From positions 124,001 through 188,000 of the forward strand of contig JAIOPI010000006.1 of NCBI GenBank assembly GCA_021413965.1: a DNA stretch of 64,000 nucleotides, given 5' to 3'. The notes under the pieces are model-generated. The model was not told the DNA's origin, did not search any database, and saw only the letters and a list, made by a program, of their open reading frames with translations. The position numbers and the translations under genes are program-made. Shown piece after piece: positions 10,625 through 61,114 of this stretch (the stretch's first letter is position 1; every line of letters begins with the position of its first letter). This DNA comes from Lentisphaerota bacterium (GTDB taxonomy: Bacteria > Verrucomicrobiota > Kiritimatiellia > UBA8416 > JAIOPI01).

Positions 10625-10647
10625 GTGCGTCCGGCGCGGTGCCGCGG

Positions 10648-11856: not shown

Positions 11857-11917
11857 GTGTTACTCCTTCTCCACTCCGGCAAAAGCATCCGGTCCGGCCC
11901 CCATTGGGGCACCATCA

Positions 11918-13447: not shown

Positions 13448-13450
13448 GGA

Positions 13451-14677: not shown

Positions 14678-14754
14678 AATGAGGGACCTGTGACGGTGGC
14701 GGTCGTCGGAACCCACCCCGCCCCCGGGCATGGCCCATTGGTCGTGTTTGTTAC

Positions 14755-19323: not shown

Positions 19324-19420
19324 GCGACGTGCGCGACGCGGTTGCCTGCCTGGCGTAGGGGCTCCGCTCGCGGAGACCTGTTGCCGGGAACAGGTCCGCG
19401 CAAGCCGGCGGGTCGGACGC

Positions 19421-20638: not shown

Positions 20639-20715
20639 GCCGATTCCCCTCTCACTGCGTTAGGTTTTCAGATGACGGACCTTCACACCAAAGCTGACCG
20701 ACGTATGACCACCCA

Positions 20716-21375: not shown

Positions 21376-21456
21376 GTGCCGAATGCTCTCCACGAACACG
21401 GCTGGTAACGGGCAGTCCCCCACCGCGCGCGTTGGTCGGGGTGGGCGTCTGGTGAA

Positions 21457-22614
21457 TCATGACGGCGCCCACTGGCAGAAGCGTTTGACGAGCAGCGTGT
21501 CGTCGAGCGCGACCGTGCGCAACCGCTCGACAATGCGTTCTGCGGCATGGCCATCGCCATACGGATTCACCAGGTCACCCAGGGACGCGCGGAACGCAGG
21601 CGACGCCGCCTGGCGGATGGCCGCCGCGATCTCGGCGGCGGCGCAGGGCGCATGCAGGACATTCGCCCCATGCTGGCGTCCTTGCTGGCGCGGGCCGATA
21701 TCCACGACGGGGAGCCTGAACGAGGCCGCCTCGATGATGCCGCTGGAGGAGTTCCCCACCATGGCTGAGGCGACCGCCATCAGGCTGAAATAGGCGGCCG
21801 AGCCCAGATTCTCGACATAGCGTGTGTTGGGGCGTCGCGCCGCGAAGCCCGCCATGGCCGCGTGGATGGCGCGGTTGCCCGGATCCATGTTGACGCCGGT
21901 AAACACGATCTGGCCCGGCCAGGCCTCCAGCCCGCGGATCACCTCCGCGATTTGCTGCGCGCTCGACTCCCGCTGGAGCGTGGCTGGGTGGTACGTGACC
22001 AGCAGCGGAGACTCGACCGGCATGCCGATTCGATCGGCGAGCACTCCAGGCGTCAGCCGCGGCAGGCCCACCACATTATCGAGCGACGGGGCGCCGCTGA
22101 GGGTGATGCGCCAGGGCTCCTCGCCCAGTTGCCGCAGGTTCTGCGCATACGCGGACGTGGACGGAAAGTGCAGGTGGCTGAGCTTGGTGATCGCGTGGCG
22201 GATGGATTCATCCATGGCCCCCTCGGTGACCTCTCCGCCATGCAGGTGCGCCACGGGAATACGCAGGGGCAGCGCGGCAACGGCCGCGGGCAGCATGTCA
22301 AAGCGGTCGCCGAGGACCAGGAGCACGTCGGGCCGCGAGCGCGCGAGGGCCTCCGCGAAGCCGGCCACGCCGCGCCCCATGGCCGTGGCAATGGCCGCCG
22401 GGGCATCGCCGTCCAGGTGCAGCGGAATCCGTTCGCGGATCGGGTAGCCGTCGGCTTCGATCTCGCGCACGGTCAGGCCAAAGCGTGCTTCCAGATGCGC
22501 ACCCGTGACGAACAGCCACGTCGCGAGAGCCGGCGTCTGCTGCAGGTGCTTGAGCACCGGCACATAGATGCCGTAATCCGAGCGCGCCACGGTGACGACC
22601 CCGATGGTTCTCAT
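21457..22614 (-). CDS. legG: Hydrolysing NDP-N-acetyl amino sugar 2-epimerase (NeuC/LegG)
   Basis: A 385-residue GT-B-fold epimerase that inverts C2 and releases the free sugar that NeuB-type synthases condense with PEP. The N-terminus VVTVARSDYGIYVPVL, the VLVLGDRFDMLPAA segment and HLHGGEVTEGAMDESIRH followed by KLSHLHF are characteristic of NeuC/LegG. GNSSSGIIEAASF near 290 is the nucleotide-binding loop. ATG 22614 is chosen because the longer frame (to 22677) adds a Pro-rich N-terminus with no homology by eye. It is followed by the NeuD-like gene and preceded by the NeuA-NeuB fusion, the expected pathway neighbours. Confidence 0.9.
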   Translation of the reverse strand: MRTIGVVTVARSDYGIYVPVLKHLQQTPALATWLFVTGAHLEARFGLTVREIEADGYPIRERIPLHLDGDAPAAIATAMGRGVAGFAEALARSRPDVLLVLGDRFDMLPAAVAALPLRIPVAHLHGGEVTEGAMDESIRHAITKLSHLHFPSTSAYAQNLRQLGEEPWRITLSGAPSLDNVVGLPRLTPGVLADRIGMPVESPLLVTYHPATLQRESSAQQIAEVIRGLEAWPGQIVFTGVNMDPGNRAIHAAMAGFAARRPNTRYVENLGSAAYFSLMAVASAMVGNSSSGIIEAASFRLPVVDIGPRQQGRQHGANVLHAPCAAAEIAAAIRQAASPAFRASLGDLVNPYGDGHAAERIVERLRTVALDDTLLVKRFCQWAPS

Positions 22615-22678
22615 GAGATGAAGCGGCACGGGAGGATTCAGCGTCCTCGGTTCAGGCAGGCGAGGGGAAGACGGCACC

Positions 22679-24400
22679 TCACTGGAGCATGTCGAACGTC
22701 AGTGGCGTACCTGCGGGGACGGTCAGACGAGTGGTGCGCCCCAGAACCTCATCCAGACGGCCGGGGGGGATACCGGTGCCGGGGCGCTGAATTACTACCG
22801 CGTCGCGCGTCAGCGTGGCGCCCGCCGGAAGTTCACGGGCGGCGACGAGGCTCTTGCGGGCGACGCGCGCGGTTGCCAGGTCGGCCCGGGTGGGCTGCTT
22901 GACCGGCGAGCCCAGCGCCGCCTCGACGGCCCGCACCGCCTGCACATAGGCCATGAACTCCGCGGGATCGGCGCTCGCCTTGTGGTCGGGTCCGGGAAGC
23001 TGCTTGTCCAGCGTGATGTGCTTCTCCAGGATGCGGGCGCCCAGGCCGACGGCACCGCAGGCCACGGCGTGGCCAACCGTGTGATCGCTGAAGCCAACCT
23101 CCAGGCGGAAAGTCTGCGCCATCGTGTGCATGGCGCGCAGGTTGATGTCGACGGGATTGGCGGGGTAATCGCTGGTGCACTGCAGCAGCGCCAGGTCGCG
23201 CTGGCCCCGCCCCGCCAGGATGTCGACCGCCACAGCCACTTCCACCAGGCTGCTCATGCCGGTTGACAGCAGCATGGGACGCCCCAAGGTGGCGGCGGCA
23301 CGCAGCATCGGGATGTTCGTGATTTCACCGGACGGCAGCTTCACGAAATCCGGATCCAGCTGGTCCAGGATGCCCAGCGACGTCAGGTCGAACACGCTCG
23401 CGGAGAAGAGCATCCCCCGCGCCCGGCACCGGTCGCGCAAGGTCGCCAGATCGCGCGGCGGCAGCTCGTACGACCGCATCAGATCCCGCATGCTCACGGT
23501 CGTGCCGGTGTTGCGCTGCTGATAGTCCGCCTGCGGGGTTGCCGCGGACGCATATTCCTCGGTCTGGAAGATCTGGAACTTGACGGCATCCGCACCGGCA
23601 TCGGCGGCCATATCGACGAGGTCCGCGGCGCGCGCGACGTCGCCGTTGTGATTCACGCCCGCCTCGGCGATGAGCAGAACCCGCGGCCGCCCCCACGGCA
23701 GCGATTGCGTATACAGTGTTTCGTTGAACGCAAGGCCGACTTCATCGTCGATTTCGACGGCGCGCTCGGGCGGGACGACGAAGCCGTGCGTGGTGCCGGG
23801 CTCCAGCCAGTGCGCGTGGTGATCCAGCCACGTCCCCGCGCAGACATACACGCTCGTGGCGAGGCGGTACTCGCGCTGGCGATCCTGCCGTTCCGGCCGC
23901 AGTGCGCGGCTCGTCATGGGCTGCAGCCGCGACCCGTCCAGCGTGAACTGGAAGTCGATTTCGTGTTCGGCCGGCGTCACGGCCACCACCGGGGCGCCCG
24001 CGAGGGTGCGGAACAGCGCGATGCAGCCGAGCACATCGTCGGGCGCGGTCAATGGCGTCGTCGGCTGCAGCAGCACCACTTCGTCAAAGTGCTCGCCGCG
24101 CTCCGCATACCAGGTCAAGGCGTGCTGGACGACTGGCGCGGAAGGGGTCCGGTCGCCCGCCAGTTCCGCGGGCCGCATGAACGGCGTTTCGGCCCCGTAT
24201 GCGCGGGCGGCCTCGGCGATTTCGGCATCGTCCGTGGACACCACCACGCGGCCCTGTCCGCCCAGGCGCGCGAGGCACCGGCAGCCCAGGCGGGCCGCGC
24301 GGCCGATCAGCGGGACGCCGCCGACGGTGCGCAGATTCTTCCGCGGTACGCCCTTGCTGCCCCCGCGGGCCAGCGAGATGAACAGCGTTCGTCTTGTCAT
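22679..24400 (-). CDS. Bifunctional CMP-nonulosonate synthetase / nonulosonate synthase (LegF-LegI fusion)
   Basis: A 573-residue fusion of two consecutive pathway enzymes. Residues 1-232 are a CMP-sugar synthetase (ISLARGGSKGVPRKN at 8-22, LLQPTTPL at 110-117, EIDDEVG at 216-222). Residues 240-495 are a NeuB synthase (EAGVNHNG 246-253, KFQIFQTEEY 274-283, STGMSS 379-384, EKHITLDK 459-466, GPDHKAS 470-476). Residues 512-573 are an SAF domain. The two reactions are sugar + PEP to nonulosonic acid, then CTP activation. With LegG, LegH, LegC and PtmE homologues nearby, the product is most likely CMP-legionaminic acid or a relative. It starts in an ATGA overlap with 24397. NeuA and NeuB are separate proteins in the well-known systems. 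Confidence 0.9.
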   Translation of the reverse strand: MTRRTLFISLARGGSKGVPRKNLRTVGGVPLIGRAARLGCRCLARLGGQGRVVVSTDDAEIAEAARAYGAETPFMRPAELAGDRTPSAPVVQHALTWYAERGEHFDEVVLLQPTTPLTAPDDVLGCIALFRTLAGAPVVAVTPAEHEIDFQFTLDGSRLQPMTSRALRPERQDRQREYRLATSVYVCAGTWLDHHAHWLEPGTTHGFVVPPERAVEIDDEVGLAFNETLYTQSLPWGRPRVLLIAEAGVNHNGDVARAADLVDMAADAGADAVKFQIFQTEEYASAATPQADYQQRNTGTTVSMRDLMRSYELPPRDLATLRDRCRARGMLFSASVFDLTSLGILDQLDPDFVKLPSGEITNIPMLRAAATLGRPMLLSTGMSSLVEVAVAVDILAGRGQRDLALLQCTSDYPANPVDINLRAMHTMAQTFRLEVGFSDHTVGHAVACGAVGLGARILEKHITLDKQLPGPDHKASADPAEFMAYVQAVRAVEAALGSPVKQPTRADLATARVARKSLVAARELPAGATLTRDAVVIQRPGTGIPPGRLDEVLGRTTRLTVPAGTPLTFDMLQ

Positions 24401-26677: not shown

Positions 26678-28036
26678 CTATTCGGACAGCGGGACCGTCA
26701 CGGCTGGCTTGCCATCCACAAACCAGCGGTGGGGCTGCACCATGGGCGGCAGGCCGCGAATAATGTGCGTCGCGGGCAGATTCGGCAGGCTGCCGCGCAA
26801 ATTGCCGGGTCCCACGACAAAGGTGCTGCGCTCGCGCAAGGGGGTGTACCATTTGACCCCGATGGCGTCGGTGATGGCGCCCTGCACGCCGACCATCAGG
26901 ACGTACGAGCCGGGCGCCAGCCGGGGAGCCGGCAAGCGGCATTCCACGACCCCCTGCGAGGGCAGCGGGTCCAGGTCGATTCCCTGCCAGCGGGTGGCCA
27001 TGGAGCTGAGCAGTTCCTCGCCGGCGCTGCGCTTGATGGTCAGGTAGAAGCTGGGCGCGACGGACGGCTGCAGCACGCGGTAGTGCACACGGAAGCGCAG
27101 GCATTCATTGTAGTCGAAGGTCTGGCGCGGCGACCCGTCGTCCGCCAGGCATTCCGCCCGCTCGATCTGGATGCGTTCCGCGGCGCCGGTTGTCGGGCCG
27201 GCGGCGGGCCCTTCCTGCGGCATCATGCGGCTGCGCGCGAGCATCTTCAATTCGTAGGCCTCGATGAGTCGCGCGGGCGGGCCGGAGTCGACCAGGCGAC
27301 CGCCCTCCAGCCAGAGCGCGCGATCGCAGACCTGTTCCACGGCCACGGTGTTGTGCGAGATGAAGACGACGGTGCCGCCGTTGTTCTTGTACCCGAGCAT
27401 GTGGTTGTAGCACCGCTCGCGGAAGGAGGCATCGCCGACGCTGAGCACCTCGTCGACCAGCATCAGGTCGGGCGCCATGTGGACGGCGACCGCGAAGCCG
27501 AGACGCACGCGCATGCCCGAGGAGTACGTGGCCACGGGCGCGTCCAGGAAATCGCCGATGTCGGCGAACTGGACGATGTTGTCGAAGCGCGAGCGGATGT
27601 AATCGCGGTCCATCCCGAGGATGGCGCCATTCAAGAAGATGTTTTCGCGCCCGGTCATGTGCGGATGGAAGCCGGTGCCGAGGGCGATGAGGGCGCCGAC
27701 CCGCCCGCGCAGGCAGACTTCGCCGCCATCCGGCGGGAAGATGCCGGCGATGATGCGCAGCAGCGTGGACTTGCCCGAGCCGTTGGAGCCGACGATCCCC
27801 AGGAATTCCCCGCGGCGCAGGTCGAAGCTGACATCATCCAGCGCCCAGAACTCCTCGCGGCGCAGGCGCATGGTGTCCTGCCGGCTCCCCATCAGGTTGA
27901 ACGCCAGATCCCGCACGCCATACAGCATGCTGCGGCGCAGATTGCGACAGAACTTCTTGGACACCGAGCGGACGCTGAGAACCGTGTCCGGCGCTATATC
28001 GTGGCTCGGTGCGGCGCGCGTGGTGCGTGGTGTCAT
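26678..28036 (-). CDS. wzt: ABC transporter ATP-binding protein, Wzt type with C-terminal glycan-binding domain
   Basis: A 452-residue ATPase of the polysaccharide exporter. Walker A is GSNGSGKST (about 83-91), the ABC signature is YSSGMRVRLGFA, Walker B is LMLVDEVLSVGD, and the H-loop is ISHN. After residue 270 there is a beta-rich domain of about 170 residues (FRVHYRVLQ, SFYLTIKRSAGEEL, YVLMVGVQG) typical of Wzt proteins that recognise the chain end of their own O-antigen. It energises export of lipid-linked glycan across the inner membrane together with the permease encoded 80 bp upstream. The spacer between the two genes is filled with degenerate ggcgtgcgt-type repeats. Confidence 0.92.
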   Translation of the reverse strand: MTPRTTRAAPSHDIAPDTVLSVRSVSKKFCRNLRRSMLYGVRDLAFNLMGSRQDTMRLRREEFWALDDVSFDLRRGEFLGIVGSNGSGKSTLLRIIAGIFPPDGGEVCLRGRVGALIALGTGFHPHMTGRENIFLNGAILGMDRDYIRSRFDNIVQFADIGDFLDAPVATYSSGMRVRLGFAVAVHMAPDLMLVDEVLSVGDASFRERCYNHMLGYKNNGGTVVFISHNTVAVEQVCDRALWLEGGRLVDSGPPARLIEAYELKMLARSRMMPQEGPAAGPTTGAAERIQIERAECLADDGSPRQTFDYNECLRFRVHYRVLQPSVAPSFYLTIKRSAGEELLSSMATRWQGIDLDPLPSQGVVECRLPAPRLAPGSYVLMVGVQGAITDAIGVKWYTPLRERSTFVVGPGNLRGSLPNLPATHIIRGLPPMVQPHRWFVDGKPAVTVPLSE

Positions 28037-28115
28037 GGTTAGGTGCCTGGTGCGGCGTGCGTGATGCGGCGTGAGACGTCCAAAGGTCCTGGTGCGTGGC
28101 GCGGCGTGCGTTTTC

Positions 28116-29030
28116 TTAAATCATCCGTTCCACGAGTTTGTGTTCGCTGACAAAGAAGAGGCGCAGGCTGATCAGGAATAGCAGCAGGGAGCCGCCGGCA
28201 CAGGCGACGTAGACGCCGACGGCGTCGTTGTAAACGTGACCGTGAATCAGGACGTCGCGGCAGGTGCAGATGAGGTAGGTCAGCGGGTTGTAGTCGTTGA
28301 TGGTTCGCAGCAGCGGGTGCGGCGGGTCGGTGTCGGAGTACAGGATGGGCGCGGTCCACATCAGCAGGCCCATGATGAGCAGGAGGAAGCGATCCAGGTC
28401 GTAGGCCACGACGCGGATCATGGACACAAACAGTCCCATGGCCGCCCCCAGGAAGAACAGCGGCAGCAGCGTGAGCGGAAAGAGCAGCAGGCCCCAGCCG
28501 GGGTAGACGCGATACAGGAGCATGGCCAGCAGCGTCGGGATGAACGAGAGCGAGAAGTTGAAGAGTTCCACGAGCATCTGCTTGATGAACAGCGCCTCGT
28601 GGGGGTACTTGACCTGCTGCACAAGCGCGGTGCCTTGATCGAGCGTGGCGGACGCCCCGGTGAAGAACCCATTGAAGGCGCTCCAGCAGGAACGCCCGAC
28701 CAACAGGTAGACGCCAAGCACGACGGTGGTGGCGCCCGGGTTATAGACGTTCATCTTGGCCGCGATCAGCCAGGGTACGGTCTGCATGATCGGGCCGGTC
28801 AACACCCACAGCGCGCCGATCCGGGATTTCTTGTACTTGGCGAACAAATCACGCTTCAGCAGCTGTTTAATGAGCTCGCTCGACCCGATGATGTTGCGGG
28901 TCATGGTCACACAGACGCCGACCCACGACATTTCGTGTCGCTGGTTGGCGCGGTAGACGGTCACCGGCGGCGGCGTCAGCGGCCTCGGATCGGGGGGGCG
29001 GTTTTTCGGCGTCGCGGTGTCAGGAGTCAT
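28116..29030 (-). CDS. wzm: ABC-2 type polysaccharide export permease, Wzm type
   Basis: A 304-residue inner-membrane permease with about six hydrophobic segments (for example around ALWVLTGPIMQTVPWLIA, LSFIPTLLAMLLY, LLFPLTLLPLFFLGAAMG and YVACAGGSLLLFLISL). The LIKQLLKRDLFAKYKKSRIGALW stretch (two parts of a conserved amphipathic entry) is typical of Wzm/KpsM-family exporters. It pairs with the Wzt-like ATPase immediately downstream. It is the second gene of the operon after the regulator. ATG 29030 has a weak ribosome site, and an internal Met at residue 34 is possible but would remove part of the cytoplasmic N-terminus. Confidence 0.9.
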   Translation of the reverse strand: MTPDTATPKNRPPDPRPLTPPPVTVYRANQRHEMSWVGVCVTMTRNIIGSSELIKQLLKRDLFAKYKKSRIGALWVLTGPIMQTVPWLIAAKMNVYNPGATTVVLGVYLLVGRSCWSAFNGFFTGASATLDQGTALVQQVKYPHEALFIKQMLVELFNFSLSFIPTLLAMLLYRVYPGWGLLLFPLTLLPLFFLGAAMGLFVSMIRVVAYDLDRFLLLIMGLLMWTAPILYSDTDPPHPLLRTINDYNPLTYLICTCRDVLIHGHVYNDAVGVYVACAGGSLLLFLISLRLFFVSEHKLVERMI

Positions 29031-47504: not shown

Positions 47505-47533
47505 TTGCCACGGAGGCGGAATTGCCCTATATT
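47505..47533 (+). promoter_or_regulatory. Sigma-70-type promoter of the phosphoramidate operon
   Basis: TTGCCA (47505-47510), a 17-bp spacer and TATATT (47528-47533) give a near-consensus promoter. Transcription would begin near 47540, about 67 bases before ATG 47607. A 10-bp palindrome ATTCGCGAAT (47483-47492) just upstream may be a regulator site. No other strong promoter is seen in front of the six-gene operon. Confidence 0.65.
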
Positions 47534-47606
47534 CGTCGGGAATGTCGAGGCGGCGGCATCAGCCCCCATGAAGCGGCCAGTTCGGCCGTCCAAGAGACAC
47601 ATACCG

Positions 47607-50003
47607 ATGGTCGCAAAGACAGGCACCAAAGCCGAGGCACTCGCGAGGATTCGCCCGCTGGTCACCAAGTCGTGTGTGCTCGACTTGGCCTATTTCTCGG
47701 TCGCGGAATACCGCGCCAATCCCACCGCCATTGAAACCCGCATCGGCACCCAGTTTGGCCCCATCCCCCTGGCGGTGCGTAGCAGTGCCCAGAGCGAAGA
47801 CAGTCTCAGGCAATCCATGGCCGGGGTCTTCAAGTCGGTCCTCGGCGTTGATGGCGCCGATGCCCAAGCCCTGCGCAGTGCCATCGAGCGGGTCATCGCC
47901 TCCTATGCCGGCAGCCCGGACGACCAGGTGCTCATTCAGCCGATGCTCTCCAATATAGCGGTCAGTGGCGTCATCATGTCGTCTGAACTCGATCATGGCG
48001 CCCCGTACTACGTGATCAACTACGACGACGAATCGGGCCGCACCGATTCCATCACGGGGGGCACCGGCGTCAACAAGACGGTCCTGGTCTTCCGCCACTG
48101 CAACGACACGTTCATGGATTCCGAGCGCATCCGCCGCTTCGTTGGCATGGCGCGGGAGATCGAAACCCTGTACGGCAGCAACTGCCTCGACATCGAGTTT
48201 GCCATGGATCACGGTGGCCAGTTGTATCTGCTGCAGGTGCGCCCCATCAGTGTCAGTTCCCGCTGGCCGGCAGGGGTGGAGCAGAAGATCCGCAACAGCC
48301 TGCAGTACATTGAGACCTTCGTGCGTGACCGCTCCAACTGCCGGCGCGGGCTCCTGGGGCGCCGGACCATCCTCGGGGAGATGCCGGACTGGAACCCGGC
48401 CGAGATGATCGGCACCACGCCCCGCCCGCTGGCGGCCTCCCTCTACCGCGAACTCATCACGAAGAGCACCTGGCGGCTGGCCCGCGAACGCATGGGCTAT
48501 CGGCGCCTCGCCTCCGAAGAACTCATGGTCATGATCGGCGGCCGGCCCTTCATCGACGTCAGAAACAGCTTCAACTCGTTCCTCCCCGATGGGTTGGATG
48601 ACGAAGTCGGCGAAATCCTGATCAATGCGTGGATTGACCGGCTGGATACCAACCCCCAACTGCACGACAAAGTGGAGTTCGAGGTGGCGCACACCTGTCT
48701 GGATTTCGTCTTCGACACGTGCTTTGCGGCCCGTTACCCGCAGGTGTTGTCGCCAGAAGCCTGCGCCCACTTCAAAGAGCGCTTGCTGGACTTGACCCGG
48801 CGCAACGTAAACATCGGCGCAAACGCCTCCCTGGCGGAAGCCTTGCGCGACGTGGATCTGCTGGCCGAAGAACAGCGGCGGCGCGATCTCCGGTGGGCCA
48901 ACCTCCCCGATAGCCTGGATATCCTGACCCAGGTCCATGACCTCCTCGACCGCTGCACACAGCTGGGAACCCTGCCCTTCTCCGTCATCGCACGCCATGC
49001 CTTCATCGCCGAGGCCCTCCTGCGCTCGGCTATCGCACGCGAGGCGCTGTCAGCGGAACGCGTCCAGGAATTCAAGCGCTCTGTTCACACGATCACCAAC
49101 GACATGATGCGCGACATGCGGGCCGTCTGCCGTGGACGGTCAGATCTGACCACGTTCATGAAGCGTTACGGCCACCTTCGGCCCGGAACCTATGAGATCA
49201 TGTCCTTGCGTTACGCCGATCGCCCCGATCTGTTTAATCAGTCGTTCCTGCCTGATGGCGAGGATGAGCAGAGCGAATTCAACCTCTCGGCACCCGAACA
49301 ACAACGTGTCAACCAGCTGCTGCACGAAGCCCGGCTCTCGCATCTGGATGGCGAGTCACTCCTGGCGTATGCAGGCAAGGCCATCGCCGGACGCGAGTAC
49401 GCGAAGTTCGTCTTTACCCGCAATTTGTCCGACGCCCTCGAGGGACTGGCCGAGTGGGGGGCGCGGCAGGGCTTGGACCGCGAAGACGTCTCGTACATTT
49501 CGCTGTCCAGCATTCTGGATACGACGACGGTCCCGGTGCTTGATGAATCCGGCTCACACTTCAAGGCCATCGTGGAACGCGGGCGTCACGGCGTCGCCGT
49601 GGCCAGCGCGCTTAAGCTAAGCTACATCATCCGCGGCGTCCGCGACGTCTATGTGGTGCCGCTGCACCGCAGCGCCCCCAACTTCATCGGCTCGGGCCGC
49701 GTGGAGGGCCCCGTCGTGCGCCTGGACGCCGGCACGCCCGCCACCGTGAACCTCACGGACCGGATCGCCTGCATCGAGAATGCCGACCCCGGCTACGACT
49801 GGGTGTTTACCAAGGGCATCAAGGGGCTGATCACCAAGTTCGGCGGCGCAAATTCGCACATGGCCATTCGCTGCGCCGAGTTCGGCCTGCCCGCCGCCAT
49901 CGGGTGCGGCGAACAGACGTTCGAACGCCTCGTGGCGGCCGGGGCCGTGGAAATCAACGGCGGCAACAAGATCCTGCGGCCACTCTGCAGCTCGGGAGAC
50001 TAG
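47607..50003 (+). CDS. L-glutamine kinase-like PEP-synthase homologue (Cj1418-type)
   Basis: A 798-residue protein with an N-terminal ATP-grasp/pyruvate-phosphate-dikinase domain (LAVRSSAQSEDSLRQSMAG, VSGVIMSSE, FAMDHGGQLYLLQVRPIS), a long helical middle, and a C-terminal phosphohistidine swivel domain whose His is in KFGGANSHMAIRCAEFG (about His751). It has no PEP-binding TIM barrel, so it is not a true PEP synthase. The layout is that of C. jejuni Cj1418, which phosphorylates the amide nitrogen of L-glutamine, the first step to O-methyl phosphoramidate. Downstream genes match the rest of that pathway. ATG 47607 is chosen; ATG 47568 is possible. Confidence 0.85.
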   Translation: MVAKTGTKAEALARIRPLVTKSCVLDLAYFSVAEYRANPTAIETRIGTQFGPIPLAVRSSAQSEDSLRQSMAGVFKSVLGVDGADAQALRSAIERVIASYAGSPDDQVLIQPMLSNIAVSGVIMSSELDHGAPYYVINYDDESGRTDSITGGTGVNKTVLVFRHCNDTFMDSERIRRFVGMAREIETLYGSNCLDIEFAMDHGGQLYLLQVRPISVSSRWPAGVEQKIRNSLQYIETFVRDRSNCRRGLLGRRTILGEMPDWNPAEMIGTTPRPLAASLYRELITKSTWRLARERMGYRRLASEELMVMIGGRPFIDVRNSFNSFLPDGLDDEVGEILINAWIDRLDTNPQLHDKVEFEVAHTCLDFVFDTCFAARYPQVLSPEACAHFKERLLDLTRRNVNIGANASLAEALRDVDLLAEEQRRRDLRWANLPDSLDILTQVHDLLDRCTQLGTLPFSVIARHAFIAEALLRSAIAREALSAERVQEFKRSVHTITNDMMRDMRAVCRGRSDLTTFMKRYGHLRPGTYEIMSLRYADRPDLFNQSFLPDGEDEQSEFNLSAPEQQRVNQLLHEARLSHLDGESLLAYAGKAIAGREYAKFVFTRNLSDALEGLAEWGARQGLDREDVSYISLSSILDTTTVPVLDESGSHFKAIVERGRHGVAVASALKLSYIIRGVRDVYVVPLHRSAPNFIGSGRVEGPVVRLDAGTPATVNLTDRIACIENADPGYDWVFTKGIKGLITKFGGANSHMAIRCAEFGLPAAIGCGEQTFERLVAAGAVEINGGNKILRPLCSSGD

Positions 50004-50005
50004 CG

Positions 50006-50527
50006 ATGGTCATCTGGTTGGTCGGCAAGTCCGGCGCGGGGAAAACGGAAATCGGCCGCAGGCTCTACCAGCGCTTCAAAGCCGTTCACCCTGGAACCGT
50101 GTTCCTCGACGGCGACATCCTCCGGGAAATCATGGGCAAAGACTTGGGCTACAGCCCGGAGGATCGCCACATCTCGGAAGAGCGCACGAGCCGGCTCTGC
50201 AAGCTGTTGTCCGACCAGGGGCTCCACGTCGTGTGCGCCAAACTGTCGAACAGCCCGCCCGTGCGGGCCTGGAATCGTACCCATATCCCCGACTACCACG
50301 AGGTCTACTTGCGCGTCCCCCCGCACGTGCTTGAGCAACGCGACCCCAAGGGTCTCTATGCCAAATTCCGCAAAGGGGAAATGAGGCAAATGGTTGGCCT
50401 CGACATCCCCTTTCACGAGCCCGAAGGACCAACCTTGGTGATCGACAACCTGGATCGCGATCCGGAGCAACTGGCGGCCGAGATATTCGAGCGTCTGACA
50501 GCCAACAGATCGAGCACACTGACATGA
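50006..50527 (+). CDS. Cytidine diphosphoramidate kinase-like protein (CysC/APS-kinase fold, Cj1415-type)
   Basis: A 173-residue P-loop kinase: Walker A WLVGKSGAGKTEIG, then FLDGDILREIMGKDLGYSPEDR, the adenylylsulfate kinase signature. In sulfate assimilation this fold phosphorylates the 3'-OH of APS. In C. jejuni the relative Cj1415 phosphorylates the 3'-OH of CDP-amidate. No sulfurylase or PAPS reductase gene is nearby, and the flanking genes are the other phosphoramidate steps, so the second role is preferred. GGGAG precedes ATG 50006, two bases after the upstream stop. It overlaps the methyltransferase gene by ATGA. Confidence 0.85.
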   Translation: MVIWLVGKSGAGKTEIGRRLYQRFKAVHPGTVFLDGDILREIMGKDLGYSPEDRHISEERTSRLCKLLSDQGLHVVCAKLSNSPPVRAWNRTHIPDYHEVYLRVPPHVLEQRDPKGLYAKFRKGEMRQMVGLDIPFHEPEGPTLVIDNLDRDPEQLAAEIFERLTANRSSTLT

Positions 50528-51279
50528 AGACAAATTGGGACTACACCCCTCTGGCCGATGCCTACCTGAAGCGACCGGACTACTCGCCCGCGGCCCTTGG
50601 CCAGATGCTGGCACTGGCCAAGGTACGCCCCGGCGATCCCGTGTGTGACGTCGGCGCCGGCGTGGCCCACCTGACCATCCCGCTGGCCTCGCATGGCTTG
50701 CGGGTGTCCGCCGTGGAACCAAACGACGCCATGCGCGCGAATGGGGTGAAACGAACCGCCGGACTGGCCAACGTCTCCTGGACTGAAGGGACGGGCGAGG
50801 CGACTGGTCAACCCGCCAACCATTTCAAACTCGTGACGTTTGGCTCGTCCTTCAACGTCACGGATCGCCCGGCCGCGCTGCGCGAGACGAATCGAATTCT
50901 GCAGCCAGGCGGCTGGTTTGCCTGCATGTGGAATCACCGTGACCTCGAGGATCCCCTGCAGGCTGCCATCGAGTCCACGATCAAGCACCTGATTCCCGCG
51001 TATGCGTATGGAACACGTCGCGAAGACCAGACCGACATCATCAATGCCAGTGGCTTGTTCGACCCCGTTCACGTGCTTTCCGGGACGGTTACCCACCAGC
51101 AGACCTGCGACGAATGCATCGAGGCGTGGCGCTCGCATGCCACGCTGCAGCGCCAGGCCGGAGACCGGTTCGGCGAAGTCGTGGCGGCCATCGCGAAGGT
51201 GCTCGCGGACGGCGGCGCCGCAACGATCACCATTCCTTACACCACGCGCATCTGGATGGCGCGCACCGTGAAAGCTTGA
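50524..51279 (+). CDS. SAM-dependent methyltransferase, candidate phosphoramidate O-methyltransferase
   Basis: A 251-residue class I methyltransferase: DPVCDVGAGVAHLTIPLA (motif I), VSAVEPNDAMRANG (acidic loop), FKLVTFGSSFNV (motif IV) and LQPGGWFACMWNH. The C. jejuni phosphoramidate cluster also carries small methyltransferases of this size (Cj1419/Cj1420) presumed to add the O-methyl group. It is embedded between the kinase and the amidohydrolase genes with an ATGA overlap upstream and a 2-bp gap downstream, so co-translation is likely. The exact acceptor (free or nucleotide-bound phosphoramidate) is not known. Confidence 0.82.
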   Translation: MKTNWDYTPLADAYLKRPDYSPAALGQMLALAKVRPGDPVCDVGAGVAHLTIPLASHGLRVSAVEPNDAMRANGVKRTAGLANVSWTEGTGEATGQPANHFKLVTFGSSFNVTDRPAALRETNRILQPGGWFACMWNHRDLEDPLQAAIESTIKHLIPAYAYGTRREDQTDIINASGLFDPVHVLSGTVTHQQTCDECIEAWRSHATLQRQAGDRFGEVVAAIAKVLADGGAATITIPYTTRIWMARTVKA

Positions 51280-51281
51280 CC

Positions 51282-51956
51282 ATGCCTCGCTGGTTGATCA
51301 CGCAACGGCTCGAGCGCAATCGTCACCAGGATGTGATCGATGTGCTCGAACGCGCCTATCTGGATTTCTTTGCGCCACGCGTAGGCTCCGTCGTCCCGGT
51401 GAGCAATCATGCGGCCGCCTCGCTGCAAGCCCAGGACTATGACGGCCTCATCGTGACCGGAGGCGGTGAGGTCCCGCGTGAATTCATGGAGGGCAACGCG
51501 GGCACGACGCCGGCCGACATGCTGGAGAGCGAAAAATACGCACTTCAGGCGCGCTTCGTGACCGAGGCGCTTCGCGCCGGCAAACCCATCATCGCCATCT
51601 GTTACGGCTTCCAGCTGATGAACGTGCTGCTGGGCGGGCGCGTGACCTGGGGCGTGCATGGCGGCGCGCCGGACCGCCAGCCCGGGCGACCGCATCCGGC
51701 CCTCCTCACCGCGACCCCATGGTTCCGCCCCCAATCGCAGGCCACCGTAAACAGCTATCACAACCAGGGCATCACACCCCTGCAACTGGCGGCAGACTTG
51801 GCTGAAGTGGCGCGTGACGACGCCTACCCCGTCGTCGAGGCGGCCGCGCACCGGTCCAAGCCCGTCTTGTGCCTGCAATGGCACCCGGAACGTCCCGCGC
51901 CCGATCCAAACTTCAATGCGGCGCTGATCGCCGCCTTCCTGAGGAGCATCTCATGA
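51282..51956 (+). CDS. Gamma-glutamyl-CDP-amidate hydrolase-like class I glutamine amidotransferase (Cj1417-type)
   Basis: A 224-residue class I glutamine-amidotransferase-fold hydrolase. The nucleophile is Cys in IIAICYGFQLMNVLLGG, and the His-Glu pair is LCLQWHPERP near the C-terminus. LIVTGGGEVPREFM is the oxyanion-side loop. There is no synthetase partner or fused domain, as in the peptidase-like members. In C. jejuni Cj1417 removes glutamate from CDP-L-glutamine to release cytidine diphosphoramidate. Its position directly before the cytidylyltransferase gene (ATGA overlap) supports that role rather than gamma-glutamyl-GABA hydrolysis. Confidence 0.85.
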   Translation: MPRWLITQRLERNRHQDVIDVLERAYLDFFAPRVGSVVPVSNHAAASLQAQDYDGLIVTGGGEVPREFMEGNAGTTPADMLESEKYALQARFVTEALRAGKPIIAICYGFQLMNVLLGGRVTWGVHGGAPDRQPGRPHPALLTATPWFRPQSQATVNSYHNQGITPLQLAADLAEVARDDAYPVVEAAAHRSKPVLCLQWHPERPAPDPNFNAALIAAFLRSIS

Positions 51957-52738
51957 GAGCGGTCATCCTGGCCGCCGGCGAAGGACGCCGGCTTAAACGC
52001 TACACCGAGAACCTGCCAAAGGGCATGCTGGCCTTTCACGGCAAGCCGCTCATCCGCCACCAGATCGACGCCTACCACGCTCAGGGCATCCGCGACATCA
52101 CCGTCGTGCGCGGCTTCTGTGGCCATGCCATCCCCTACACCGATGTGACCTACGTCGAGAATCCACGCTGGGCCGAAACCAACATGGTCGAATCCCTGCT
52201 TTGCGCGCGCGCTCTCTTCGACGATGACCTGCTCGTGTCCTATGCCGACATTTGCTTCGACGCGCCTCTGCTCCGCGCCATGCGCACCTGCCCTCACCAG
52301 ATCGGCGTGGCCGTCGATCTGAACTGGCAAGCCTACTGGCAGAAACGCTACGGCCGGATCGATTTCGACACGGAGTCGTTGAAGTTCGACGCCCACGGCC
52401 GGATCGTGTCGCTGGGTGTGTCTGACCCACCCCTGGCCGAGATCTCGGGACGCTACATCGGGATGCTGAAATTCTCGGCGCGCGCCCTGCGCGAAGTGGT
52501 CGCCATTTACGAGTCCGCCAAACTCACCCACTGGGAGAAGCCCTGGCAGCAGTCCGGCAAACCGTTCCGTCAGGCCTACATGACCGACCTGCTCCAGGAA
52601 CTGATCGACCGCGGCGAAGCCGTGCAGGCCGTCACGGTCTCGGGCGGCTGGCTGGAGTTCGACACGAACGAGGATTACGAACGACAGCGCGACTGGCCCT
52701 TTGACGAGGGTCTGTCCACGCCCCCCCGCACCGTATGA
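51953..52738 (+). CDS. CTP:phosphoglutamine cytidylyltransferase-like protein (Cj1416-type)
   Basis: A 261-residue nucleotidyltransferase: VILAAGEGRRLKRYTENLPKG at the N-terminus (G-x-G-x-R and the PK lysine), ENPRWAETNMVESLL, VSYADICFDAPLL as the D-x metal region, and GGWLEFDTNEDYE at the end. LicC/choline-phosphate cytidylyltransferases and Cj1416 share this pattern. Cj1416 joins CTP to L-glutamine phosphate, giving CDP-L-glutamine, the substrate of the hydrolase encoded just upstream. GAGGAG precedes the ATG, which overlaps the upstream stop (ATGA). No choline kinase is nearby, so phosphocholine activation is unlikely. Confidence 0.86.
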   Translation: MRAVILAAGEGRRLKRYTENLPKGMLAFHGKPLIRHQIDAYHAQGIRDITVVRGFCGHAIPYTDVTYVENPRWAETNMVESLLCARALFDDDLLVSYADICFDAPLLRAMRTCPHQIGVAVDLNWQAYWQKRYGRIDFDTESLKFDAHGRIVSLGVSDPPLAEISGRYIGMLKFSARALREVVAIYESAKLTHWEKPWQQSGKPFRQAYMTDLLQELIDRGEAVQAVTVSGGWLEFDTNEDYERQRDWPFDEGLSTPPRTV

Positions 52739-53919
52739 GCACCACGCGCCCGATCGTCGAGATCGTGTCCTCCGAAGCGCCCTGCGGCGTGACGTTCCTG
52801 CTCAATGCCCTCGTGGAACTCGACGTGCTCATCTTCGCCGGCGAATTCGATGTCTTCTGGCGGCTCGACGGTCAAGCCGCCCATCCGAATCCGATCCTCC
52901 AGAAGAAGTTCTCGGTTTGGATCCCCAGCCTCAAGGAGCGCGCCGAGTTCCCGGTCCGCGACGATACGGCCTTCTACTGGACGCACGGCTGGCCCTATCC
53001 CCAGGATCCCGCGCGCAAGCGGATTCTCTTCGTGCGCGACCCGCGTGACGCCCTCTACTCGTACTATCGGCGACTTGCACTGAGCACGCCGTTGAACGAA
53101 TTTCTCGAAGCGCCCACGCCCCCGCTCGGCACGCGCCTGCTGGAACGTTGGGCATTGCAGAAGTTGCTTTGGCAAGCGCTGGCCATCCCCGAACAATTCC
53201 TGCTGGTGCGCTTCGAAGATATTAAGGCGCAGCCCTTGGAGGTGATTCGCCGCATCCTGGCCTTCGCCGGCATCCAGCGCGACGACGACCGGATCCTGCA
53301 TGCCGTGGCGCAGTCCCAGACGGATCGGGTCAAGAAACTCCACGACCAGAGCCTGAGCGCCGTCGCAACGAAGCGGACCGAAATTCGCAAGGGGCAATCG
53401 TACGAATGGAAGACGGCCCCAGGCCGCGCAGACTTGCCGCTCTACCGGCGCGGCTACATCCTGCGGGCACTGCACGCCTTCGGCTACGAAGTCGAACCTG
53501 CGGCGACACCAGCGGTTCCGGCCGCCGACACAACCGACGACAAGGCGCAAGGCGCGGCACTGGCCCATTGTTGGTACCGGCGCCTCTATGGCCGCACCCT
53601 CGGCGACAATACCGCCGCGACTGAACGAATCATGCAAACCTTGGTCCAGTGCATCAGCGAAAGCCGAACCAACGCCTGCATCGCTACACAGCTGCAAACC
53701 GGTGCAGGCGGACTGACCGTGCCGACCACCGGCAGGCAGCCCGCCCCGCGCGGCGCACGATGGATATCATACCGCACGCATCTGGTGTGGCGCATGTGGA
53801 TTTTCTGCCGGCTCGTGCGCATCACCACCACCATTCGCGCCCTGTCGCTCAAGCTCTGTCCGGGGCTGGCGCAGTGGATCGACAAGCGCGTCCTGGCCTT
53901 CGAACTGGGACGTGGCTGA
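52735..53919 (+). CDS. Sulfotransferase-fold protein, candidate phosphoramidate transferase
   Basis: A 394-residue protein with a sulfotransferase domain. The 3'-phosphate-binding motif LFVRDPRDALYSYYRR is clear (residues 98-113). The 5'-phosphosulfate loop, normally P-K-S-G-T-T-F-L, reads APCGVTFLLNAL (15-26) and lacks the usual lysine. A C-terminal extension of about 130 residues ends in a hydrophobic/basic segment. It is the last gene of the operon (ATGA overlap) and ends three bases before a convergent gene. The known pathway product, 3'-phospho-CDP-amidate, resembles PAPS, so transfer of phosphoramidate to a glycan hydroxyl is my inference; an ordinary sulfotransferase is the alternative. 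Confidence 0.75.
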   Translation: MSTTRPIVEIVSSEAPCGVTFLLNALVELDVLIFAGEFDVFWRLDGQAAHPNPILQKKFSVWIPSLKERAEFPVRDDTAFYWTHGWPYPQDPARKRILFVRDPRDALYSYYRRLALSTPLNEFLEAPTPPLGTRLLERWALQKLLWQALAIPEQFLLVRFEDIKAQPLEVIRRILAFAGIQRDDDRILHAVAQSQTDRVKKLHDQSLSAVATKRTEIRKGQSYEWKTAPGRADLPLYRRGYILRALHAFGYEVEPAATPAVPAADTTDDKAQGAALAHCWYRRLYGRTLGDNTAATERIMQTLVQCISESRTNACIATQLQTGAGGLTVPTTGRQPAPRGARWISYRTHLVWRMWIFCRLVRITTTIRALSLKLCPGLAQWIDKRVLAFELGRG

Positions 53920-55173: not shown

Positions 55174-56688
55174 TCAGAACTGAAAATAGAGAAACTCGGA
55201 GATCTGGTTCAACTGCATGAGCGACACCCCAAGTGCCAGCCCGAAGACTACGGCCCAGCAGATTCTCGGGACGGCCATAGCCGCCGATACGAAGCCACGC
55301 CCAGCGCCCCGCTCGCCCGCCACGAGCGCCTCCGCAACAACATGCGAGGCGGGCACGAACCAGACGAGAAGCGCCCCGGCCACAAACAGCGCTAATTGCC
55401 GAAGCGTCACAAGGTGGTGGCCGAGTCCAAGGCTCACATAGAGAGATGTCGATGTCTTGAATCCCGGATCAAACATTCCGCGGAGAATGCGGCACGCGGT
55501 CTCCAAGTCCGCGGCACGGAAGAAGACCCATGCAATGACAACCAGCACAAACGTGAAGGCTGTGGATGCAATGTGCCCGATCGGCCCCCATCCACTGCTG
55601 CCGGGTGCCGCCTCTTTGGCAAAGGCGCGCCAGCCGTGCGCCACAACCAAGTACAGCCCATGCAACCCACCCCAGGCCACGAACGTCCAGTTGGCACCAT
55701 GCCAGAGGCCGCCAAGCAGCATCGTCACCAGCAAATTCATGTACCGCCGGGTCGGCCCTTTGCGGTTGCCACCCAGTGGAATGTACAGATAGTCCTTGAG
55801 GAATTGCGACAAAGTCATGTGCCAGCGCTTCCAGAAGTCGATCATGTTTGTCGCCTGATACGGCGATTCAAAATTGACGGGCAGCCGCACGCCGAACAGC
55901 CTCGAGAGACCCACTGCCATATCCGAATAGCCGGAGAAATCGAAATATATCTGAAAGGCATAAGCCAGGGCGCCAAGCCAAGCCACCACCAACTGCGGCT
56001 GAGTCCCCTCGTGCGCACTGTTGAATACGGGCACGGCGAACGTGGCAAAACCGTCGGCGAGAACCACCTTCTTGAAAAGCCCCATCGCAAACAGCGTCAA
56101 GCCGAACGCCGAATTGGCGCTGTTGATCCGGACCGCGCGCGGACGCGTAAGCAGGTCCGCGAATTGCGGCATGATCTGCTTGTGATGCAGGACGGGACCG
56201 GCAATCAGGTGAGGGAAATAGGTGACGAATAGCACGTAATCGATGAAGTTGTACTCTTGCCCTCCCAGGCGGCGAACGTCCACCAAGTACGCAATTTGGG
56301 TGAAGGTGAAGAAGGAAATACCAAGGGGGAGCACGATGGCCAGGGCCGCAAACTCACTCCCGGCAAGACCGTTCACCGTGGTGAGGATGAAGTTGGCGTA
56401 CTTGAAATAGCCGAGCAGGGCCAGGTTGGCCGATATGCCGACAACCAGTAGGACCTTCCCGCCGGTCCCGTCTCGGGTCTTGCCGATCCAATAGCCCATC
56501 GCATAGTTGAACGTGATTGACCCCAGCAGGAGCGGCACAAATGCCACGTTCCACCAGCCATAGAAGAACACGGATGCCAACGCCAACCAGAGGTTGGGAA
56601 GCCGCGAACGCGATTGCCCAAGCAGGAAGTACCCGCCAAGAACCACGGGCAGGTACAGCAGGATGAACTCGAAAGAATTGAAGAGCAT
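55174..56688 (-). CDS. MBOAT family membrane O-acyltransferase (AlgI-like, second copy)
   Basis: A 504-residue polytopic membrane acyltransferase. LLGGLWHGANWTFVAWGGLHG carries the conserved His, LIAGPVLHHKQIMPQF and NMIDFWKRWHMTLSQFL are typical, and the protein ends ISEFLYFQF, the same ending as the other MBOAT here. It would export acyl groups for O-acetylation of the glycan together with the SGNH protein encoded downstream. ATG 56688 gives a normal AlgI length. Two distinct MBOAT/SGNH sets in one locus suggest acylation at two sites or with two acyl groups. Confidence 0.93.
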   Translation of the reverse strand: MLFNSFEFILLYLPVVLGGYFLLGQSRSRLPNLWLALASVFFYGWWNVAFVPLLLGSITFNYAMGYWIGKTRDGTGGKVLLVVGISANLALLGYFKYANFILTTVNGLAGSEFAALAIVLPLGISFFTFTQIAYLVDVRRLGGQEYNFIDYVLFVTYFPHLIAGPVLHHKQIMPQFADLLTRPRAVRINSANSAFGLTLFAMGLFKKVVLADGFATFAVPVFNSAHEGTQPQLVVAWLGALAYAFQIYFDFSGYSDMAVGLSRLFGVRLPVNFESPYQATNMIDFWKRWHMTLSQFLKDYLYIPLGGNRKGPTRRYMNLLVTMLLGGLWHGANWTFVAWGGLHGLYLVVAHGWRAFAKEAAPGSSGWGPIGHIASTAFTFVLVVIAWVFFRAADLETACRILRGMFDPGFKTSTSLYVSLGLGHHLVTLRQLALFVAGALLVWFVPASHVVAEALVAGERGAGRGFVSAAMAVPRICWAVVFGLALGVSLMQLNQISEFLYFQF

Positions 56689-59240: not shown

Positions 59241-61114
59241 CAGGGTCCTCTGTTCTATCGGTGTAAGGCGTTGATGGCACGCGGTTGAAGAAAAGACTTG
59301 CCCGTTCGGCCCCCATTTGCTCTCATCAGGCTGGATGAAAGCGCAAATCGGCAAGAGCCCAGGCGGCCCGCTCACCGTGCGTGAAGCGGGGAAAGCGGAG
59401 TGGCCACGGATCAACGACTTGCTCGCCGAGAAGCATCCGCAGCATGCGCCCAAGCGCGTTGGGCACGATTTGCGCATGGTGGTAGAGCAAGGTGGCGAGT
59501 GGGTTGGGGTTCTGGTGTGGACTTCGGGGTGCCAGCGTTTGCAGGATCGCGACGAGTGGATCGGCTGGACGAACGCCCAACGCGCACAGCGGTTGAAGTT
59601 GATCGTGCAGTTGCGGCGCTACTTGTTGCTGCACGAAGCCGGCACGCGGCCGAACTTGGCCAGCGAGGCCCTGGCCGCGGCGACGCGCGCGTTGCCCGCG
59701 CTGTGGCAGAAGCGTTTCGGCTTTGAGCCCGCATTGCTAGAGAGCTTTAGCGATGTGGAGGCGCACGCCGGCACCTGCTACCGGGCGGCGGGGTGGACCG
59801 CCGTGGGCCTGAGCAAAGGCTTTGCGAAGCACCGGGGCGATCTGTACGAGTTTCACGGCCGACCCAAGAAGTTGTGGGTGCGGCCCTTGGGCAAGCTGGC
59901 CGTGGATGCGCTGCGGGCGCCGCAGTTGCCCGAACGTTACGAAGCGGGGGCCACGGCCAGCGCGCACGGCCAGTTGCCCTTGGCGCCGGGGCAGACGCGA
60001 TCCTTGGCGGCCGCGTTGCGTATGGTCCCGGATCCGCGTGCCGCCAACTGCAAGTTCCCGCTCGGGCCCTTGCTGTGCGTCATCGCCATGGCGCTGTTGA
60101 GTGGCGCACGCGACCTGGCGCAAATCCAGCGCTTCGGCTGGCGGCTACGCCCACAGCAGCGGGCCCACTTGGGGTTCCGGCGGCGGCGGGGCACGGCGGT
60201 CTACCCGGGACCCGGCTACAGCGTCTATCGTGATGTCCTCAAGGGGCTGGACCTGGAGGTCTTTGCCGAGGCGCTGACCGCCTGGCTAGCAGCCAACCGC
60301 GGCAGCCTGCCCAGCGCCCTGGCGTTGGATGGGAAGATGATCCGCGACACGATCGGGGTGCTCAGTCTCGTGGAGGTCGAGACGGGCGTCCCGGTCGCGT
60401 TGCGCATCATGACGCAGAAAGAAGGCGACGGGGCACATTGCGAGAAGTCGGTGGCCCGGCAACTGGTCGCCGACATACCCGACGCGCAAGGGGCGCTGCT
60501 CAGCGGTGACGCCCTGCATACCGACAAGGTCATGGCACAGACGGCGGTGGCCAACGGCGCGGACTACCTGCTGCAAGTCAAAGGCAATCAGCCGACGATC
60601 AAAGCGCGACTGGCGCGCCGGACCGCCAACACCCCCCTTTTGCCGTCATAGCGGCCAAGGGTCACGGGCGCGAGGAAACCTGGCGCATCCGGCGCACGTC
60701 CATCGAACCGCTGGAAGTGGACTTCCCGCATGCGCGTTGCGCCCTGCGCGTGGAACACGCCGGGACACGCAACGGCATGCCCTTCCGGGAAACCCGCTTC
60801 TACATCAGTAACCGACCGGCTGATACCCATGCGCTCGAACAGTGGCTGCAGCATGTGCGCAACCACTGGGCCGGGGTTGAAAACCGTCATCACTGGCGCA
60901 AGGACGCCTGCCTGCGCGAGGACCATACCCGCAGCCGCAACCCCAACGTCGTCGGGGCCTTGGCACTGTTGCGCAGCGCCCTCTTCGCCATCCACCAGCC
61001 CCACCACGAACTCTACGGCGGACTCAACGGCTTCACCGAAGCCGTCGCCGCCGATCCCGCCTTCGCCTATCGCCTGATTACACGCCCCCTATGAGCTCAA
61101 AACAAAAGACCCTG
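59241..61114 (+). mobile_element. ISAs1-family insertion sequence (1874 bp)
   Basis: Left end CAGGGTCCTCTGTTCT (59241-59256) and the complement of the right end, CAGGGTCTTTTGTTTT (61099-61114), match at 13 of 16 bases. Both sides carry the 11-bp direct repeat GGTTGCAGAAC (59230-59240, 61115-61125). One transposase-like gene (59335-61094) fills the element. A CAGGG-type end, a target repeat near 10 bp and the transposase domain agree with ISAs1. The insertion lies downstream of the glycan genes and upstream of a toxin-antitoxin pair, at the border of the accessory end of the window. Confidence 0.85.
59335..61094 (+). pseudogene. DUF4338-ISAs1 transposase, frameshifted
   Basis: The first 438 codons (59335-60651) encode a DUF4338 domain (TVREAGKAEWPRINDLLAEK, VLVWTSGCQRLQDRDEWIGW, GWTAVGLSKGFAKHRGDLYE) and then the start of an ISAs1 transposase (LPSALALDGKMIRDT with the first Asp, LLSGDALHTDKVMAQ with the second, VKGNQPTIK). 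The frame ends at TAG 60649-60651. The rest of the transposase (RFYISNRPADTHALEQWLQH, GVENRHHWRKDACLREDH, NVVGALALLRSALF) continues in the -1 frame to 61094. The switch point is a C6T4 run at 60632-60641. A one-base loss there, or a ribosomal -1 shift, would explain it; I favour a loss. Confidence 0.82.

Follow-up and report, generated by a model that had tools for sequence, protein, structure and literature searches.

The operon and its protein families

We analyzed a stretch of 64,000 nucleotides from a Lentisphaerota bacterium (assembly GCA_021413965.1, contig JAIOPI010000006.1, positions 124,001 to 188,000), hereafter called the window, and focused on an operon of six genes (g1 to g6, Table 1) that resembles the gene set by which Campylobacter jejuni prepares the O-methyl phosphoramidate (MeOPN) of its capsule. 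The six open reading frames (ORFs) are intact and co-directional on the plus strand over 47607-53919, with ATGA overlaps at 50524, 51953, and 52735 and 2-bp gaps at 50004-50005 and 51280-51281, as had been described in an earlier note made from the sequence alone; the start given there, 47505, is that of a promoter-like element, and the gene for the 798-residue protein begins at 47607. A TTG at 51276 is a possible alternative start of g4. Promoter-like matches in the region numbered 2 against 1.4 expected, which is at chance level, and the G+C content was 0.637 in the operon and 0.652 in the window. The earlier note had named functions for five of the genes; the sixth, g6, left unnamed in its reasoning, is a sulfotransferase-family protein and is the most informative of the set.

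Table 1. Features of the window (positions counted from its first letter)
Feature	Coordinates	Strand	Description
g1	47607-50003	+	Glutamine-kinase-family protein, 798 aa; PPDK_N (ATP-binding) and PEP-utilizers (swivelling) domains
g2	50006-50527	+	CysC-like kinase, 173 aa, predicted CDP-amidate 3'-kinase; APS_kinase Pfam
g3	50524-51279	+	S-adenosylmethionine (SAM) methyltransferase (MT9 family), 251 aa, predicted phosphoramidate O-methylation; Methyltransf_11/25
g4	51282-51956	+	Peptidase_C26/GATase-type hydrolase, 224 aa, divergent; Cys107, His201, Glu203 kept
g5	51953-52738	+	LicC-like nucleotidyltransferase, 261 aa, predicted phosphoglutamine cytidylyltransferase; NTP_transf_3
g6	52735-53919	+	Sulfotransferase-family protein, 394 aa, predicted phosphoramidate transferase; Sulfotransfer_1
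Promoter-like hexamers TTGCCA-17-TATATT	47505-47533	+	73 bp upstream of g1
Polysaccharide-export ATP-binding cassette (ABC) transporter	26681-29030	-	Wzt-type ATPase with Wzt_C domain and ABC-2 permease
Stretch with nonulosonate (sialic/legionaminic-type) synthesis genes	7629-24400	-	NeuC, NeuD, and LegC above cut-offs
MBOAT O-acyltransferase	55177-56688	-	

In a profile search, g1 matched the NCBIfam model NF004508 (PRK05849) with 895.5 bits (cut-off 501), whereas phosphoenolpyruvate (PEP)-synthase models gave 55.6 bits at most, and PEP synthase was rejected as an identity for g1 on these scores. Only the PPDK_N and PEP-utilizers domains passed the Pfam cut-offs, and no PEP/pyruvate TIM-barrel domain was found in g1 by the Pfam scan. 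Among 64 relatives, 99 columns are conserved at the 95% level or above, and g1 agrees with all of them (99/99), including that of H751, the predicted phosphohistidine. NF004508 itself is named 'hypothetical protein', and the glutamine kinase label comes from the source names on relatives, 'glutamine kinase' being borne by two of those listed (P0061 and P0070). By these matches, g1 is a member of the glutamine-kinase (PRK05849/NF004508) family and not a PEP synthase.

The second protein, g2, belongs to the Pfam family APS_kinase, has a P-loop, and scored above the PRK05541 cut-off, and its score for the adenosine 5'-phosphosulfate (APS) kinase equivalog TIGR00455 (apsK) was 125.6 bits, under the cut-off of 138.7. 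We built a tree from 65 CysCs linked to the g1-type kinase and 23 canonical APS kinases (the genome's own CysN-CysC, which is encoded separately elsewhere, and the best-scoring unlinked PF01583 matches). A 100/98 branch divides this tree: on one side are 61 of the linked CysCs, g2 among them, and on the other are all 23 canonical enzymes and the four remaining linked rows (L039, L114, and two from L085). The proline of the APS-kinase FISP motif, found in 23/23 canonical enzymes compared with 4/65 linked CysCs and 1/15 further linked ones (L177, a repeat of L104, being counted here), is absent from g2. A standard APS kinase was rejected for g2 because of its score under the apsK cut-off, the lack of the FISP proline, and its position outside the canonical clade; on these grounds, g2 is best described as a CysC paralogue.

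The best solved relative of g5 is the cytidine triphosphate (CTP):phosphocholine cytidylyltransferase 1jyk, and 28 of 31 conserved columns are kept in this protein, for which, as a kinase-linked LicC-like nucleotidyltransferase, phosphoglutamine is the predicted substrate. In g3, every column that is at least 95% conserved among 16 linked relatives is kept (29/29). Both g3 and g5 fit a phosphoramidate gene set.

It had been contended in the earlier note that the genes make no sense as a PEP synthase and an APS kinase taken separately, and this was borne out, the best matches of g1 and g2 not being to true enzymes of those kinds. By Pfam name alone, CysC and the sulfotransferase resemble a system using 3'-phosphoadenosine 5'-phosphosulfate (PAPS), so that the operon could be taken for a sulfation cassette composed of a PEP-synthase-like protein, an APS kinase, a sulfotransferase, and unrelated enzymes. 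We consider this very improbable and rejected it, because no ATP sulfurylase is present among the six genes (Pfam), g1 is not a PEP synthase, and g2 falls under the apsK cut-off. Furthermore, in 6 of 26 genomes with a kinase locus, which may be incomplete, the best APS_kinase match was 121 bits or less (only 22 in one) and no canonical APS kinase was seen.

Spread and linkage of the gene set

Among 57 genomes (that of the window and its relatives), only the window's own passed the NF004508 cut-off, and no other scored above 60.8 bits; the cut-off was passed by 3 of 387 genomes in a sample of the phylum, its own included, and by 17 of 385 in the class of locus L035, those of L035 and L036 included. 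A scan of named genomes confirmed at least 545 kinase-related stretches out of 588 matched by pattern, and the best 80 of these, retained for locus comparison, include proteobacteria, Desulfovibrio, Bacteroidota, Verrucomicrobia, Omnitrophota, a Cohnella, and one archaeal genome. The distribution of the g1 family is wide and patchy; the operon does lie outside its classic host, as the earlier note had stressed, but such occurrence is common. No relatives of g1 were confirmed in viral contigs. No C. jejuni sequence was recognized among the listed g1 homologues, among the matches listed from the named-genome scan, or among the homologues of another linked kinase; this last search was seeded with the kinase whose neighbor scored best on the Cj1417-type model and listed 120 homologues, most of them without a name. 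In a record filed as a bacteriophage from human faeces (L027, MT837632.1), a kinase was seen by eye to be fused to a hydrolase-like C-terminus, next to thioredoxin-reductase-like and Mur-ligase-like ORFs (also by eye), and this record may be a bacterial fragment.

For the locus comparison, 88 loci were used, namely, the best 80 stretches less one duplicate, 8 others, and the window. The counts leave out L073 and L177, which repeat the record of L028 and the contig of L104, respectively, and G1099, in which the match was split and under the cut-off; several loci are short contigs, and many come from metagenome-assembled genomes. The hydrolase and the cytidylyltransferase were both found within 6.5 kb of the kinase in 73/88 loci (window included) and with it in 53 of the 58 loci with full flanks, and CysC was called separately in 64/88. 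In a second set of 15 further genomes over the cut-off from the class sample, 14 once L177 was dropped, the hydrolase and cytidylyltransferase accompanied the kinase in 14/14 and CysC in 12/14. Such co-occurrence far exceeds what chance would give. The recurrent linkage (73/88 and 14/14), here in the surface-glycan region described below, sustains the earlier proposal that the genes belong together as a phosphoramidate-type pathway.

The loci differ in the genes that would tailor the product. MT9, the methyltransferase type of the window, was present in 19/88 loci and a formyltransferase-like gene in 36/88, with both together in none (0/88); the corresponding values in the second set were 8/14, 2/14, and 0/14. 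The MT9 type also occurs in culturable bacteria, among them Oceanibacterium hippocampi CECT 7691 (L041) and Azospirillum lipoferum 4B (L030). Within its side of the CysC tree, g2 adjoins the CysCs of the formyltransferase class and not those of the MT9 class, and on this branching the operon is a mosaic. In the formyltransferase class (e.g., L095:8710-10001, with Formyl_trans_N), the formyltransferase-like gene replaces MT9, joined in 28/36 loci by a protein of about 190 residues, for which no Pfam match was found in L095; a formylated phosphoramidate or another tailoring step is possible in such loci. A B12-binding radical SAM protein, conceivably a P- or C-methyltransferase, lies directly 5' of the kinase at L079:4361-5917 and L099:8413-9948 (Pfam), and the same cluster occurs in L058 and L103. 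On an Agrobacterium vitis plasmid (L034:11307-13991), three core genes are accompanied by a LysE exporter and a CDP-alcohol phosphotransferase, no CysC being found in this locus, and the product is possibly a secreted phosphoramidate compound built directly from cytidine diphosphate (CDP)-amidate. A borderline glycerophosphotransferase match (22.5 bits compared with a cut-off of 22.1) was obtained in Vibrio alfacsensis (L032). Thus, some CysC-less loci (L034 and L032) carry other candidate transferases, which would fit the direct use of CDP-amidate.

In the window, glycosyltransferases and MBOAT acyltransferases are also encoded on the opposite strand. With nonulosonate genes, a Wzt_C-type exporter, glycosyltransferases, and MBOAT in the window, the setting of the operon is that of a surface-glycan locus. 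In the nonulosonate stretch, two NeuB-like synthases scored under their cut-off; one carries a fused cytidylyltransferase-like domain (PseF model, under the cut-off) and the second fused CBS-like and SAF-like parts (by eye). Adjoining the glycan genes, a transposase-like fusion is encoded by the plus-strand ORF at 59317-60648, in which a DDE_Tnp_1-associated domain comes after a DruA domain.

The sulfotransferase-family protein g6 and a proposed phosphoramidate transfer

The match of g6 to Sulfotransfer_1 (58.7 bits, cut-off 22) starts only at profile position 89. The protein contains the motifs RDPRDALYSYYRR and RKGQSYEW, which we take to serve in 3'-phosphate binding, and Arg101-Asp-Pro-Arg-Asp-Ala106, Arg113, and Trp225 are invariant across 9 aligned rows. 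A 5'-phosphosulfate loop with a catalytic lysine is, we assume, the mark of the PAPS site in sulfotransferases; the first loop of g6 reads APCGVTFL and is not such a lysine loop. A canonical sulfotransferase of the same genome (L123:14742-15668, on contig C14; Sulfotransferase by Pfam) has the lysine loop FKAGTTWL, and this gene adjoins, by eye, a very large polyketide/fatty-acid-synthase-like gene. When a profile was built from g6 together with 8 relatives, it matched 51 sulfotransferase sequences of the PDB, the best stretches beginning at position 90 or later, and no solved sulfotransferase matched before profile position 90. In a search for the g6 family, 7 proteins including g6 passed out of 7997 scored candidates.

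Protein fusions also join members of the set. Glutamine kinase and APS_kinase domains are fused in 7 of the 120 listed homologues of the other kinase (precomputed domains; P0235 was rescanned). In a Verrucomicrobia operon, a single ORF between the cytidylyltransferase and the methyltransferase (L079:9834-11276) matched both APS_kinase (113.9 bits) and Sulfotransfer_1 (92.3 bits; Pfam). In its sulfotransferase half, which matched g6 with E 9e-8, the loop is LPNSGASAL, again without the lysine; the CysC half of the ORF, which was not among the rows of the CysC tree, lacks the FISP proline by eye. The fusions thus tie the kinase to CysC and CysC to the sulfotransferase. A longer protein with CysC in Azospirillum lipoferum (L030:5629-8166) was not counted as a fusion, because its N-terminal part, which gave no Pfam hit at E <= 0.01, is sulfotransferase-like only by eye.

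With a probability that we put at roughly 60%, the operon makes 3'-phospho-CDP-amidate, and g6 passes the phosphoramidate, likely O-methylated, to a surface glycan. From the genes, their families, the recurrent linkage, and the fusions, each catalytic step, the acceptor, and the place of methylation may be predicted as follows. Starting from glutamine, ATP, and CTP, g5 would couple the product of g1 to cytidine monophosphate (CMP), and g4 would take off the glutamate to give CDP-amidate. Next, g2 would do what CysC does for APS and phosphorylate the cytidine ribose at its 3' hydroxyl. The donor, replacing PAPS, would be recognized by g6 at its 3'-phosphate via the kept sulfotransferase motifs, and the phosphoramidate would be moved to a sugar hydroxyl with the release of 3'-phospho-CMP. 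The methyl group would be added by g3 before or after transfer; we infer both the O-methylation and the glycan target. The donor of this scheme, CDP-phosphoramidate 3'-phosphate, is the cytidine counterpart of PAPS, which is built on adenosine: it is phosphorylated at the 3' position, bears a group for transfer at the 5' phosphate, and is completed by a CysC-type kinase. Because the donor would be PAPS-like, a sulfotransferase-type enzyme with a kept 3'-phosphate site and a changed 5' loop would be its expected partner. A broader proposal, to which we would give even odds, is that a branch of the sulfotransferase superfamily switched its donor, transferring phosphoramidate instead of sulfate from the 3'-phospho-CDP-amidate that a CysC paralogue supplies, a PAPS look-alike based on cytidine, and that this chemistry modifies glycans in many bacterial phyla, the tailoring modules being interchangeable (a methyltransferase here and a formyltransferase elsewhere).

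Several results weigh against this scheme, and one group of them concerns g4. The earlier note had seen counterparts of every nucleotide step of the C. jejuni pathway in the operon, and g4 makes this an overstatement. On the gamma-glutamyl-CDP-amidate hydrolase model NF045546 (Cj1417 type), g4 scored 35.6 bits, compared with a cut-off of 250. The 48 genomes or records that contain a locus all gave a higher best match, from 51.7 to 136.7 bits, with none (0/48) over the cut-off; in six plasmid records and G093:C427, the best match was the kinase-linked ORF (positions compared). On a linked-hydrolase profile built without the window, g4 scored 106, and unlinked C26 enzymes reached up to 107, except for L187 (unlinked, 202), which groups with the linked ones; the linked hydrolases, the profile's own training set, scored 190 or more. 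Although 16 of 23 near-invariant columns of the linked hydrolases are kept, g4 departs at seven, two of them invariant and five near-invariant: Tyr108 and Gln133 stand in place of the Arg and His of 72/72 linked hydrolases, and further linked ones keep Arg108 in 18/18 and His133 in 17/18. The hydrolase tree left g4 unplaced. These departures would suit a related but different P-N compound, the changed pocket of g4 acting on another gamma-glutamyl substrate (e.g., after methylation) or g4 being a non-orthologous replacement. We regard this as rather improbable, because g1 agrees at 99/99 conserved columns, so that its substrate is probably unchanged, and g4 keeps the catalytic triad (Cys107, His201, and Glu203) and the HPER arginine, which is present in 72/72 linked but 2/20 unlinked enzymes. 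Judged from these comparisons, g4 is the weak link of the pathway; a hydrolase role for it is plausible, possibly on a different substrate.

Another group of results concerns the association of g6. Sulfotransferase-like neighbors were found in 20/88 loci (window included), 10/19 with MT9 compared with 10/69 without (Fisher p 0.0012 for the 88 loci and 0.013 for the 58 full-flank loci), by search profiles partly trained on the same loci; the second set gave 6/14, and 4/8 with MT9, by our own profiles alone. The Pfam cut-off was passed by the window and 14 others of the 20 loci and failed by L097, L098, L111, and L055 (one of its two genes scanned), and L043 was left out of the Pfam scan; among the MT9 loci, 7/19 passed, L037 barely (22.1 compared with 22). 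Because no sulfotransferase-like gene was found in 9/19 MT9 loci and one was present in 7/36 formyltransferase loci, it is not an obligate partner. The kinase-linked L055, L169, L172, and L175 have ordinary-looking arginine loops (by eye), so that the changed loop marks g6, L079, and L040 and not every neighbor, and the RKG motif is missing from L037. Eight weaker matches to the g6 profile (53-82 bits) in 297 genomes of the phylum of L037 had no kinase in the surrounding DNA (0/8); one of them adjoins a canonical-type CysC, and one is on a 3.2-kb contig. Among 386 genomes of the phylum sample of L079, no CysC-sulfotransferase fusion was found besides that of L079 itself (E <= 1e-25).

It is accordingly worth weighing that the nucleotide pathway operates as described while g6 is an ordinary PAPS-dependent sulfotransferase, the phosphoramidate being moved by an unrecognized enzyme of the Cj1421/Cj1422 kind. 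The 9/19 MT9 loci just mentioned are in line with this, as are the CysN-CysC of the genome and L181, where an ordinary-looking sulfotransferase adjoins a canonical-type CysC with no kinase. On the other hand, g6 is without the lysine loop that the canonical enzyme of its own genome has, it overlaps g5 by ATGA, and in the L079 fusion the sulfotransferase is joined to a CysC that lacks the FISP proline (by eye). Taken together, an ordinary sulfotransferase seems unlikely, and we favor phosphoramidate transfer by g6.

Comparison with known systems

In C. jejuni, Cj1415-1418 make CDP-phosphoramidate 3'-phosphate, the likely donor, and no assignment is given for Cj1419/Cj1420 in the available passages of the same source (PMC11800397). 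Orthologues of Cj1416-1418 are reported in 13/30 Campylobacter strains (PMC3907429), and the decoration reactions are named as future work in the passages available (PMC11800397, PMC12409886). A 2022 review describes glutamine kinase as C. jejuni-specific (PMC9561416). A phosphoramide is reported on the lipopolysaccharide (LPS) of Shewanella MR-4 and Xanthomonas campestris, the passages concerned naming no genes (PMC3210612, PMC8042644); the likeness there is the group on LPS, and we draw no link to this operon. In the titles and abstract openings that were listed, with full texts and most subscription papers outside the scope, no literature tying a sulfotransferase to phosphoramidate transfer was found.

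The present operon may help explain why the Campylobacter pathway adds a 3'-phosphate at all, which a PAPS-like reading of the donor would account for. It also points, beyond Campylobacter, to a family of candidate transferases for the transfer step, which is poorly understood, and to a candidate methyltransferase. With the kinase family in many phyla, P-N decoration of glycans may be widespread and overlooked.

Like the Campylobacter MeOPN system (Cj1415-Cj1418 with the transferases Cj1421/Cj1422), the operon clusters a glutamine-kinase family protein, a cytidylyltransferase, a C26-type hydrolase, and a CysC-type kinase in a surface-glycan setting, a link to Cj1415-Cj1418 that rests on models and names; it differs in its divergent hydrolase and in having the sulfotransferase-family and methyltransferase genes inside the operon. 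Compared with APS kinase, g2 is alike in Pfam family and P-loop but falls under the apsK cut-off, outside the canonical clade, and without the FISP proline. Similarly, g6 resembles the PAPS-dependent sulfotransferases (Sulfotransfer_1) in passing the family cut-off and in its 3'-phosphate and RKG motifs, with the roles that we presume for them, whereas it has APCGVTFL in place of their lysine loop.

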